Shown here: one piece after another, positions 43,715-46,909 of the stretch | Layout: every line of letters starts with the position of its first letter | How positions within the stretch are numbered: the stretch's first letter is position 1 | NCBI GenBank assembly: GCA_007693505.1 | Contig: REDL01000051.1 | Coordinates: 1 to 64,000 of the forward strand | DNA: 64,000 bases | DNA from: Desulfovibrionales bacterium | Lineage (GTDB): Bacteria; Desulfobacterota; Desulfovibrionia; Desulfovibrionales; Desulfonatronaceae | Direction of reading: 5' to 3' | Made by a program: the position numbers and the translations under genes | Notes under the pieces: model-generated | The model's input: only the letters and a program-made list of their open reading frames with translations | Databases searched by the model: none | Told to the model about the DNA's origin: nothing

Positions 43715-43765
43715 TGGAAAGACTGGATTCCGGCTTTCGCCGGAATGACGAATTTCAAGGTTTTG
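43715..43765. repeat. REP-like intergenic palindrome
   Basis: ATTCCGGC (43727-43734) and GCCGGAAT (43739-43746) form a perfect 8-bp stem with a 4-nt TTTC loop, flanked by CCTTGGAAA and TTTCAAGG that extend the pairing with one bulge. The core tggattccggctttcgccgg is a repeat type seen in many proteobacterial genomes. The 460-nt gap (43399-43858) holds nothing else I can name apart from the ribosome-binding site of the next gene. Confidence 0.75.
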
Positions 43766-43858: not shown

Positions 43859-44554
43859 ATGAGCGCGAATTTTCAATCCCATCTCAAAGAGGTCGGCCTT
43901 GCTGTCCTGCCCATCACCCTGGTGGTGGTCCTCCTGCAGATTTTTCTGGTCAACATGCCCTGGGTTGTTTTCGCCCGCTTCCTGATCGGCGTAGCCATGG
44001 TTCTCCTCGGGCTCTTGCTGTTTTTGCAGGGAGTGAAAATCGGTCTGCTGCCCATGGGCGAAGCCGTGGGTGCTGAACTGCCCAAACACGGGTCAATGGT
44101 CTTTCTGCTTTTTTTCGCCTTTCTGCTCGGCTTTGTCGTGACCGTGGCCGAGCCGGATGTCCGGGTTCTGGCGCACCAGGTGGACTTCGTCTCCGGAGGA
44201 TTGGTCGAAAGCAACGTTCTGATTCTCACCGTCGCCCTGGGAGTGGCTGTCTTCGTGGCCATGGCCATGCTGCGCATTGTGCTGAAAACGCCGATCACCT
44301 GGCTATTGGTCGGCGGGTATCTGATGATTCTCATTCTTTCGTTCATCACCCCCGCGGCCTTCGTACCCATTGCCTTTGATGCCGGTGGGGTAACCACCGG
44401 CCCGGTTACCGTGCCCTTTATTCTCGCCCTTGGCCTCGGCACGGCCGCGGTCATAGGTGGGCGCTCCTCCTTTGCCGACGGCTTCGGCTTGATCGGCTTG
44501 GCCTCCATCGGTCCGGTGATTGGCGTGATGATCCTGGGAATGCTTTACGGATGA
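43859..44554 (+). CDS. DUF1538 membrane transporter subunit (UmpA-like)
   Basis: This 231-residue membrane protein has about seven hydrophobic helices and the DUF1538 signature FLLGFVVTVAEPDVRVLAHQVDFVSGG, with FVPIAFDAGGVTTGPVTVPFILALGLG near the end. Paired DUF1538 proteins (UmpA/UmpB) have been reported from Halomonas as a Na+(Li+, K+)/H+ antiporter. GGAG lies 6-7 nt before the ATG. Its last four bases overlap the start of the second DUF1538 gene, so the two are coupled and probably form a heteromer. Confidence 0.85.
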   Translation: MSANFQSHLKEVGLAVLPITLVVVLLQIFLVNMPWVVFARFLIGVAMVLLGLLLFLQGVKIGLLPMGEAVGAELPKHGSMVFLLFFAFLLGFVVTVAEPDVRVLAHQVDFVSGGLVESNVLILTVALGVAVFVAMAMLRIVLKTPITWLLVGGYLMILILSFITPAAFVPIAFDAGGVTTGPVTVPFILALGLGTAAVIGGRSSFADGFGLIGLASIGPVIGVMILGMLYG

Positions 44555-45279
44555 GCGAACTTCTGGATTTCCTGCACTTCGGCCACGTTTCCTGGGAAGT
44601 CTTCCAGGCCCTGGTCCCGCTGATGGGCTTCTTTATCTTCTTCCAGGCCGTTTATCTGAAATTGCCCATTTCGTACGTGGTGAACATGGTTAAAGGCTTG
44701 GCCCTGACCATGGTCGGGCTGGCCCTGTTCCTGCAAGGCGTCAAGGTAGGATTTATGCCGGTAGGCACCCAGATGGGCGAAATCCTCGGCGCCATGGACA
44801 GCAAATGGCTGCTCATGCCCATCGGATTTCTCCTGGGACTGGTGGCCACCGTGGCCGAGCCGGCGGTGCGCATCTTGAGTTATGAAGTGGAAAAAGCCTC
44901 TGCCGGAAGCATCAGCGAACGATCGATCCTGATCACCCTCTCCCTGGGAGTGGCCCTGTTTGTGGCCCTGGGCATGGCCAAGATAATTTACGGCGTTCCC
45001 ATCCACTACATCATCGTTCCGGGCTATATATTGGCCCTGATACTGATGCGCTTTGCGGACCACACCTTCGTGGCCATCGCCTTTGACGCCGGCGCGGTGG
45101 CCACCGGTCCAATGACCGTAACCTTTGTTCTGGCCGTGGCCCTGGGTATTGCCTCGGCCATTGACGGCCGTGATCCAATCCTGGACGGCTTCGGCTTGAT
45201 TGCTCTGGTGGCCATGGCCCCGATTCTCTCGGTCATGATCCTGGGCCTTGTTGTGACCTTCATCCGGAAAAGGAGTTGA
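44551..45279 (+). CDS. DUF1538 membrane transporter subunit (UmpB-like)
   Basis: This 242-residue membrane protein is a paralog of its upstream neighbour, with the same landmarks: FLLGLVATVAEPAVRILSYEVEKASAG and FVAIAFDAGAVATGPMTVTFVLAVALGIASAIDGRDP. It begins at ATG 44551 within an ATGA overlap. Conserved Glu/Asp residues in the membrane motif could carry ions. The PII-like gene starts 2 nt after its stop, implying that the transporter is controlled by this protein. Confidence 0.85.
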   Translation: MSELLDFLHFGHVSWEVFQALVPLMGFFIFFQAVYLKLPISYVVNMVKGLALTMVGLALFLQGVKVGFMPVGTQMGEILGAMDSKWLLMPIGFLLGLVATVAEPAVRILSYEVEKASAGSISERSILITLSLGVALFVALGMAKIIYGVPIHYIIVPGYILALILMRFADHTFVAIAFDAGAVATGPMTVTFVLAVALGIASAIDGRDPILDGFGLIALVAMAPILSVMILGLVVTFIRKRS

Positions 45280-45281
45280 GC

Positions 45282-45620
45282 ATGGAAGTGGGTGTCCCGT
45301 TCGACCTGATCGTCACCATTGTCAACAAGGGGCATAGTGAAACGGTCATTACCGCGTCCAAGGAAGCCGGTGCCGAAGGGGGGACGATCATCCCAGGCCG
45401 AGGTACGGGCATTCGGGAAAATAAAAAGCTCTGGGGGATTCCCATTGAGCCGGAAAAAGACATTGTTTTGACCATCGTTCCCCAGGAAAATTCTGATGCT
45501 GTTCTCAAGGCCATTGTCAAGGCCAGCAAACTGGACAAGCCGGGTGCCGGGATATCATTCGTCCTGGAACTGACAAAGGTCGCCGGCATCTGCCACATGT
45601 GCATGTTGGACCAGGAGTGA
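45282..45620 (+). CDS. PII-like signal protein
   Basis: This 112-residue protein has the PII ferredoxin-like fold pattern: DLIVTIVNKGHSETVITASKEAGAEGGTIIPGRGTG, a short T-loop-like region, then DIVLTIVPQENSDAVLKAIVKASKLDKPGAGISFVLEL. It lacks the classical T-loop tyrosine and ends with CHMCM, a CxxC pair that canonical GlnB/GlnK do not have. AGGAG stands 6 nt before the ATG at 45282. As PII proteins normally gate transporters, it probably regulates the two DUF1538 subunits. Confidence 0.85.
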   Translation: MEVGVPFDLIVTIVNKGHSETVITASKEAGAEGGTIIPGRGTGIRENKKLWGIPIEPEKDIVLTIVPQENSDAVLKAIVKASKLDKPGAGISFVLELTKVAGICHMCMLDQE

Positions 45621-45671: not shown

Positions 45672-46694
45672 TTACCAGCCCAGCAAATAGGCGAACATCA
45701 ACGGCGCAACAATGGTCGCATCTGACTCGACAATAAACTTGGGCGTGTCCACTCCCAGCTTGCCCCAGGTAATTTTTTCATTCGGGATGGCTCCGGAATA
45801 TGAACCGTAACTGGTGGTGCTGTCGCTGATCTGGCAGAAGTAGCCCCAGAGAGGAACGTCGGTACGTTCCATATCCTGATGCAACATGGGCACAACACAG
45901 ATTGGAAAGTCTCCGGCGATCCCCCCCCCGATCTGGAACATGCCCAGGGGGGCTTGCTTGGTGCTCTGGCTGTAATAATCAGCCAGCCAGGTCATGTATT
46001 CGATCCCGGTGCGCACGGTGTGCACATTTTTCACCTCGCCCCGTAACACCGCGGCGGCGTACATGTTGCCCAGGGTGGAGTCTTCCCAACCCGGCACGAC
46101 CATGGGCACGTTCTTTTCCATGGCCGCCAGCATCCAGGAATTCTGGGGATCAATCTGGTAGGATGGGGCAAGATCTCCGCTGGCCAGAATCTGCCGGAAA
46201 AATTCATGGGGAAAGTAGCGCTCTCCCTTGGCATCCGCTTCTGTCCAGACCTGGAGCATGGCTTTCTCAATCCGCCGCATGGCCTCCATTTCCGGAATGC
46301 AGGTGTCCGTGACCCTGTTCATATGCCGAGCCAACAATGCTGCTTCGTCCTGCGGGGTGAGGTCCCGGTAATTGGGCACCCGTTCGTAATAATCGTGAGC
46401 CACGAGGTTGAAGACGTCCTCTTCCAGATTGGCTCCGGTGCAGACGATCAAGTGCACCTTGTCCCGACGAATCATCTCGGCCAGGGACAACCCCAGCTCC
46501 GCCGTACTCATGGCCCCGGCCAGGGTAACCATCATTTTCCCGCCTCCAACCAAAAATTCCCCATAAGCCTGCGCCGCGTCCACCAGGGCCGCGGCGTTGA
46601 AATGCCGATAATGATGCGTGATGAACGACCCTACGGGGCCGAGTTGCGTAACTTCTTGCGATTTGACACGTATTTTTCTCTCAGCCGAACACAT
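45672..46694 (-). CDS. Deoxyhypusine synthase-like protein 2
   Basis: This second member of the DHS family (340 aa) diverges strongly from the one at 37303-38436. It has MMVTLAGAMSTAELGLSLAEMIRRDKVHLIVCTGANLEEDVFNLVAHDYY, MVVPGWEDSTLGNMYAAAVL, MFQIGGGIAGDFPICVVP, PNEKITWGKLG and SDATIVAPLMF. The position that holds the catalytic lysine in eukaryotic DHS reads GGGIAGDF, with no lysine. Its product may be a polyamine or something else; the family is poorly characterised in bacteria. AAGGAG lies 8 nt before the ATG at 46694; a GTG two codons upstream is too close to it. Confidence 0.85.
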   Translation of the reverse strand: MCSAERKIRVKSQEVTQLGPVGSFITHHYRHFNAAALVDAAQAYGEFLVGGGKMMVTLAGAMSTAELGLSLAEMIRRDKVHLIVCTGANLEEDVFNLVAHDYYERVPNYRDLTPQDEAALLARHMNRVTDTCIPEMEAMRRIEKAMLQVWTEADAKGERYFPHEFFRQILASGDLAPSYQIDPQNSWMLAAMEKNVPMVVPGWEDSTLGNMYAAAVLRGEVKNVHTVRTGIEYMTWLADYYSQSTKQAPLGMFQIGGGIAGDFPICVVPMLHQDMERTDVPLWGYFCQISDSTTSYGSYSGAIPNEKITWGKLGVDTPKFIVESDATIVAPLMFAYLLGW

Positions 46695-46909
46695 GAACAC
46701 ATCTCCTTATGAATCATAAAAATGAAATGACGCGCCGATACCGGCACACTTCCGGCTTCGGATAATCGGAGCCACGACTTCCGTCAATTTGGGCCGCGGT
46801 CCAGCACCTGAGGCGGATTTGCTCAAAAGCCCGTCAAAAATGTGCTTGAATAGCGGGATTCAAGGCTTTGCTTCTGGACGCTGCGACCACGTTAGGATAC
46901 AAGTCCGCC

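Follow-up and report, generated by a model that had tools for sequence, protein, structure and literature searches.

A PII-like gene in near-obligate company with DUF1538 genes, and its probable role as the regulator of a cation/proton antiporter

Introduction

What does a PII-like protein do when its gene follows, at a distance of two nucleotides, a pair of genes for DUF1538 membrane proteins? The question is raised by an operon in the window, by which we mean the whole 64,000-nucleotide stretch of a Desulfovibrionales genome (contig REDL01000051.1) that was analysed here. A preliminary description had proposed that the PII-like protein may gate a cation transporter according to nucleotide and redox state, the latter through a CxxC motif at its C-terminus. 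To our knowledge, the protein-level switching of cation/proton antiporters is poorly known outside a few cases, and literature searches of open-licence articles returned, in the portions of text that they covered, no paper on the PII–DUF1538 pairing.

Results

Gene layout of the locus

The three genes form a compact operon on the plus strand, in the order umpA-like, umpB-like, PII-like, with a GidB/RsmG-type gene upstream. Its features are the following:

43859..44554, + strand: umpA-like gene, first DUF1538 membrane subunit, 231 aa (PF07556, E 1.7e-74)
44551..45279, + strand: umpB-like gene, second DUF1538 membrane subunit, 242 aa (PF07556, E 5.1e-74)
45270..45275, + strand: likely ribosome-binding site AAGGAG of the PII-like gene, within the 3' end of umpB (judged from the sequence)
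45282..45620, + strand: PII-like gene, 112 aa and stop (PF00543, E 6.3e-9; AlphaFold2 model; PDB matches)
45396..45458, + strand: short T-loop region, residues 39-59 (GRGTGIRENKKLWGIPIEPEK), lacking tyrosine, with Arg40 and Lys59 conserved
45591..45602, + strand: Cys104-His105-Met106-Cys107 tail motif, in which His105 is family-wide and the Cys pair lineage-specific

The two membrane genes overlap by 4 nt (ATGA), and the ATG of the PII-like gene at 45282 lies 2 nt past the umpB stop; an alternative TTG start at 45276 appears in the list of open reading frames, and the relatives agree with the ATG. The C-terminus of the PII-like protein reads AGICHMCMLDQE and ends in CHMCMLDQE, with Cys104 encoded at 45591-45593, Cys107 at 45600-45602 and His105 between them. 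The preliminary description was therefore right about the arrangement of the two DUF1538 subunits and the PII-like start 2 nt after umpB, about the T-loop, which has no tyrosine at positions 39-59, and about the C-terminal CHMCM. The same gene order recurs across phyla and is thus not a product of chance.

The surroundings of the operon contain two features of separate interest. Upstream, at window positions 43725-43750, lies a palindromic dispersed repeat, GGATTCCGGCTTTCGCCGGAATGACG, which has 39 copies in the genome at no more than two mismatches, the reversed control having 0. Downstream, on the minus strand at 45672-46700, lies a deoxyhypusine-synthase-type gene (PF01916, E 1.8e-40), here in a bacterium. 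A promoter scan found 0, with 1.4 expected in shuffles.

The nearest named relatives of the window's PII-like protein include Desulfonatronum records, at 72-77% identity. In G313, a genome of the window's own genus, the PII sequence as listed is the same as in a record named Desulfonatronum (L041, L067). Desulfonatronum or a near relative is therefore the most likely source of the window. We take Desulfonatronum to be alkaliphilic sulfate reducers; cation/proton exchange would fit such a host, because an alkaliphile needs it.

Linkage between PII-like and DUF1538 genes

Counted from the DUF1538 side, the PII-like gene adjoins DUF1538 in 77 of the 81 examined genomes with a DUF1538 gene above the cut-off, which come from four phyla. 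Five of the 81, namely the window's own genome and G533-G536, had been found by way of the PII and are not independent; without them the linkage stands at 72/76. The draw from Desulfobacterota yielded DUF1538 above the cut-off in 18 of 297 genomes, 15 of them with an adjacent PII-like gene. Of the three misses, L022 is at the end of its contig, L024 contains an incomplete gene, and L025 barely passes the threshold, with 23.1 bits against 22.6. Bacillota carry DUF1538 in 101 of the 299 genomes drawn; we examined 50 of the 101 (the 28 top-scoring loci among the new ones, 20 from lower in the list and two carriers already known) and found the PII-like gene adjacent in 49, the single miss (L252) lying at a contig end. 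DUF1538 above the cut-off is rarer in the archaeal phylum (4 of 115 genomes) and in Bacteroidota (9 of 296), and is accompanied by PII in 4/4 and 9/9 of these genomes, respectively; hits below the cut-off, in four genomes of the archaeal phylum and two of Bacteroidota, had no PII adjacent. For DUF1538 on plasmids the count is nine of nine records with a P-II gene at most 500 nt downstream, eight detected by tblastn and the ninth through its annotation. In eight of the 20 further Bacillota loci (L243-L249, L258) a single DUF1538 gene is accompanied by one PII, which makes the PII a steadier companion of DUF1538 than the second membrane subunit is. Co-travel of the three genes had been suggested as a check on the proposed unit of transporter and regulator; the partnership proves real, widespread and near-obligate across four phyla and plasmids, and lends that unit strong support. 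One of the plasmid modules, in Methylocystis rosea (L240; NZ_CP034088.1 102747-110040), is situated between IS66 transposase genes.

The linkage was also counted from the PII side. The draw at the level of the order contained a PII relative in 91 of 247 genomes, and DUF1538 lies directly upstream of PII in 28 of the 30 nearest relatives; the UmpA-UmpB-PII order is kept in 27 of these 30 best loci, L054 has a single DUF1538 upstream, L042 is truncated where its contig ends, and L066 has CitMHS_2 upstream and no DUF1538. A GTDB scan produced at least 494 stretches encoding a PII relative, with DUF1538 directly upstream in 78 of the best 80; the other two are L069, at the start of its contig, and L129, a genuine exception. 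Judging by the record titles, from which the taxonomy was read, these best 80 loci span Desulfovibrionales, other Desulfobacterota, Bacillota, Aminicenantes, Balneolaceae, Chloroflexi, archaea and others. A second PII domain accompanies the first in 27 of these loci: 25 have the two in tandem (within one ORF in seven of these), and the remaining two (L104, L142) have two consecutive whole modules.

A second, independent link comes from 60 further loci of the order draw, where PII is with DUF1538 in 41, directly behind an NhaB-type gene in six, behind CitMHS_2 in one and with neither partner in 12; eight of these 12 are weak matches of 18-30 bits, and four (L187, L194, L198, L220) have other neighbours. 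One neighbour of each type was checked against Pfam (NhaB, E 4.1e-168; CitMHS_2, E 1.7e-168), and the remaining NhaB genes were assigned from their resemblance to the Pfam-confirmed one. With NhaB and CitMHS_2 as further neighbours, antiporter-type genes recur beside the PII relatives.

Several of these outlying loci deserve individual mention. The NhaB-type Na+/H+ antiporter gene stands directly before the PII relative in L186, L206, L207, L208, L218 and L225, and five of the six NhaB-linked relatives have two PII domains. At L184:1443-3284, which holds the same PII as L066, a CitMHS_2 transporter occupies the place of DUF1538, and at L187:2997-4773 a CNNM/CorC-type transporter gene comes after the PII-like gene. 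The window's genome itself encodes a second PII-like paralogue of the family (G000:C111:217184-217459; L006, L194), which adjoins a PAS histidine kinase and has no antiporter gene beside it. A congener that holds an intact DUF1538-PII module also holds a second, broken one (G309:C16; L195).

Fold and conserved residues of the PII-like protein

The window's protein belongs to the P-II family by its score of 36.5 bits against PF00543 (cut-off 25; E 6.3e-9), a cut-off passed by five of six other members and failed, at 24.5, by the NhaB-linked one. The AlphaFold2 monomer model, calculated with 88 aligned rows, has a pLDDT of 85.4; its T-loop is short and of low confidence, and residues 104-108 form a short helix at the C-terminus. 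Its fold is the ferredoxin-like fold of PII, matched by PDB PII chains at E of about 1e-6 and Z of about 10, and its best PDB neighbours are GlnK, GlnZ, SbtB and CutA chains (Z 9.4-10.5). At the level of sequence SbtB was absent among the PDB hits of both the window protein and its profile.

The residues typical of canonical PII are largely lost. Tyrosine occurs within the T-loop (39-59) in 6 of the 88 aligned family rows, and the profile alignment to solved PII proteins places Ile/Ala, Gly and Cys at the positions of K90, R101 and R103, which in this numbering we take to be the ATP-phosphate residues of canonical PII. The two PROSITE PII signatures, the YRGAEY-type T-loop pattern and the B-loop pattern, are both absent from all 88 family rows. 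The window's genome also has four canonical PII loci (L001-L004), of which three carry at least one of the signatures, L003 carries neither, and two have the YRGAEY-type signature. Since the T-loop tyrosine and K90/R101/R103 are lost, the PII-like protein is not a nitrogen sensor, and we rejected that reading on the absence of the signatures and of the canonical ATP-phosphate residues.

Other positions are strongly conserved. G30, G33, T35, G41, G90, G102, K59 and H105 are kept in at least 97.7% of the family rows, and R40 in 91%, with Lys in the remaining rows. We read this pattern as that of a PII cleft which may have been re-tooled for another ligand. The window's genome encodes a diadenylate cyclase, so that c-di-AMP is possible as a candidate.

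The DUF1538 pair as a putative transporter

Both membrane proteins match DUF1538 across the whole profile and are members of that family, scoring 250.1 and 248.6 bits with PF07556, whose cut-off is 22.6. Against the NCBIfam models, the umpA-like gene reaches 143.8 bits with the UmpA model (cut-off 490), the umpB-like gene 134.3 with the same model and 114.7 with the UmpB model (cut-off 500), and the best UmpB-model score of the pair is 128.6. With scores so far under the cut-offs, the UmpA/UmpB equivalogs (NF041627/NF041628) were rejected as a label for the window's pair, and its substrate could therefore differ.

The relevant precedent is UmpAB of Halomonas zhaodongensis, a DUF1538 pair described as a two-component Na+(Li+,K+)/H+ antiporter (PMC5484666). 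According to that paper, antiporter-deficient E. coli grows again only if both genes are expressed, the Na+(Li+,K+)/H+ antiport was measured in vesicles, and the DNA subcloned in E. coli carried no PII gene (PMC5484666); being active without it, the pair makes PII dispensable for transport. The window's pair resembles UmpAB in its paired DUF1538 subunits and overlapping genes, the Halomonas subunits having seven predicted TM segments each in the same account; it differs in lying far under the equivalog cut-offs, and the main text of PMC5484666 mentions no PII. Taking this family relationship together with the sub-cut-off scores, we infer that the window's pair is a monovalent cation antiporter.

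In some relatives both UmpAB halves are fused in one protein. The model of one such fusion (L219:1450-2943, 498 aa; pLDDT 85.2, pTM 0.83) displays helix breaks at two conserved acidic motifs per half, AEP and FD(A/S)GG..(T/S)GP, a layout that may be of the kind associated with ion-coupled antiporters. The model had no PDB fold match at E <= 0.001, and a second structural comparison gave at best a Z of 5.8 over 114 residues; with no convincing match the transporter fold cannot be named, which does not imply that it is new. A divergent fused DUF1538 protein of 690-740 aa is found in L019, L020, L021 and L196; the next ORF, with a length of at least some 370 aa, contains repeated PII domains that match weakly.

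The C-terminal tail

The tail was surveyed in 174 distinct PII domains, after removal of identical sequences, of PII domains scoring below 100 bits and of those truncated at the end of a locus; this column-based count replaces an 88-row regex count that included mis-hits (L098, L118). The conserved residue of the tail is His105 (160/174), which had no part in the argument of the preliminary description, and Cys104 is found in 63/174. CxxC occurs in 19 of the 30 nearest relatives, with CxxxC in six more, and in 25/174 domains family-wide, a share too small for it to be retained as a family-defining feature. The CxxC to which the redox idea appeals is thus common among the close relatives and missing from most of the family; redox control is possible only in some lineages.

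The distribution of cysteines has a structure of its own. A second tail cysteine is present in 42 of the 63 domains with Cys104 vs 8 of the 111 without it, at spacings from Cys104 of i+3 (25), i+4 (7), i+5 (1), i+9 (6), i+10 (2) and i+14 (1), and cysteine after position 105 has a frequency of 6.6% with Cys104 and 0.8% without, compared to 0.5% in the protein core. These proportions suggest a paired function of the tail cysteines. We did not accept the co-occurrence as proven: the naive Fisher test (p 9e-17) takes no account of kinship, and the tree, with 13 changes of Cys104 and 15 of the tail Cys, holds only four to six well-supported independent contrasts between the two, for which the sign test is not significant (medians 1 and 0.5).

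Discussion

The explanation that we consider probable is that the three genes constitute a PII-gated monovalent cation/proton antiporter with a dedicated SbtB-like regulator, whose tail carries a lineage-specific thiol or metal function. Because the gene pairing is so consistent across bacteria and archaea, the PII-like protein is very probably the built-in regulator of the exchanger, with gating as its presumed mode of action. UmpA and UmpB would form an ion-exchanging heterodimer, as in the Halomonas relative, and the PII-like protein would serve as its dedicated cytoplasmic regulator, the linkage of the genes pointing to contact and gating. Its mode of action would most likely be that of SbtB on SbtA: a trimer would bind the transporter from the cytoplasm with its T-loop face, and a small ligand in the cleft between subunits would decide whether transport is locked or released. 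Because the canonical MgATP/2-oxoglutarate site is not kept, the likelier ligand would be AMP/ADP or an adenine second messenger (cAMP, c-di-AMP). In Desulfovibrionales the Cys-His-x-Cys tail, lying near the place of the SbtB R-loop, might bring the binding of the ligand or the docking under thiol-redox or metal control, which by analogy we propose with low confidence.

Which known PII systems does such a unit resemble? The closest parallel is the cyanobacterial bicarbonate transporter SbtA with its PII-like regulator SbtB, which shares the PII fold without canonical signatures, the partnership of the regulator gene with a secondary transporter, a C-terminal Cys pair that follows a His close to where the last strand ends, and alignment to our model at Z 9.4-10.1. 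The SbtB tail YGHTFCGPEGC was checked against the PDB sequence, and a Cys pair that may be its counterpart is located at about the place of the SbtB R-loop in 25 of the 30 nearest relatives. The differences are that the partner here is DUF1538 and not SbtA, that the protein has no detected sequence similarity to SbtB, and that the window's family has a shorter tail, with CxxC vs CGPEGC, and spans many phyla. In AmtB-GlnK, too, a PII of similar fold gates a transporter, whereas the window protein lacks the T-loop Tyr, K90/R101/R103 and any sign of nitrogen control. The c-di-AMP-binding PstA/DarA proteins, described as reading an adenine second messenger, match the model at Z 9.6 and form a separate sequence family; we know of no antiporter linkage for them. 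The best reading of these comparisons is that the PII-like protein would work like SbtB or GlnK while being a member of neither family.

The most serious competitor, which we regard as a substantial though lesser possibility, is that the PII-like protein is regulated by nucleotides only and the lineage cysteines are incidental. It draws on the fact that Cys104 is confined to 63/174 domains and CxxC to 25/174, and that even close relatives (L045, L046, L058) have no Cys pair. The cysteine frequencies of the tail speak against it (6.6% with Cys104 vs 0.8% without and 0.5% in the core), as does the recurrence of the partner Cys at i+3, i+4 and i+9/10. A further point against it is that the SbtB R-loop cysteine pair is likewise found in only about half of SbtBs. 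The redox state of SbtB alters its nucleotide binding and membrane association (PMC10991534).

It is also conceivable, if unlikely, that the disulfide reading is wrong and Cys-His-x-Cys is a metal site (Zn, Fe, Cu or Ni) through which the PII-like protein reports the metal state. It is the His flanked by the two cysteines that is conserved (160/174), and CutA folds match the model at Z 9.8. PII-NG, according to PMC7726332 (citing Sant'Anna 2009), clusters with the proton/metal antiporter CzcABC and is a proposed metal sensor; it resembles our case, by description only, as a PII-like gene linked to a proton/cation antiporter, and differs in that CzcABC is a heavy-metal pump and the partner here is of the Na+/K+ type. 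The kinship of that partner to a Na+/Li+/K+ antiporter weakens the metal site, and His105 is kept even where there is no cysteine, so it need not be a metal ligand.

A purely structural or assembly role of the PII-like protein in the antiporter, without sensing, appears more doubtful still. The near-obligate linkage extends even to single-gene DUF1538 transporters (L243-L249, L258) and the canonical ligand residues are lost, both of which would suit such a subunit. Halomonas UmpAB, however, is active without PII in E. coli (PMC5484666), and G30, G33, T35, R40, K59, G90 and H105 resemble a kept ligand cleft. Finally, it is highly improbable that the protein is a common nitrogen regulator whose only tie to the transporter is a shared transcript, the names P-II (Pfam) and P-II family nitrogen regulator (PGAP) notwithstanding, in view of the signatures (0/88 family rows vs 3/4 canonical loci), the other PII genes in the genome and the near-universal linkage.

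Returning to the PII-gated antiporter, a broader hypothesis can be formulated, which we offer tentatively and with its claims about homeostasis and the tail included: that this PII family is the standard gating subunit of Na+/K+-H+ antiporters (DUF1538, NhaB, CitMHS_2) in bacteria and archaea. Cation and pH homeostasis would then be coupled to adenylate energy charge or to an adenine second messenger, the near-invariant C-terminal histidine would mark the ligand cleft, and several lineages would have independently gained a tail Cys partner, giving rise to R-loop-like redox switches.

If an entire antiporter family has a PII protein as its near-obligate partner, the reach of PII gating would widen to the homeostasis of Na+/K+ and pH. 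If true, the partnership predicts an unexpected oligomeric state for DUF1538, and it would give a function to hundreds of proteins now named 'P-II family nitrogen regulator' and 'DUF1538'.
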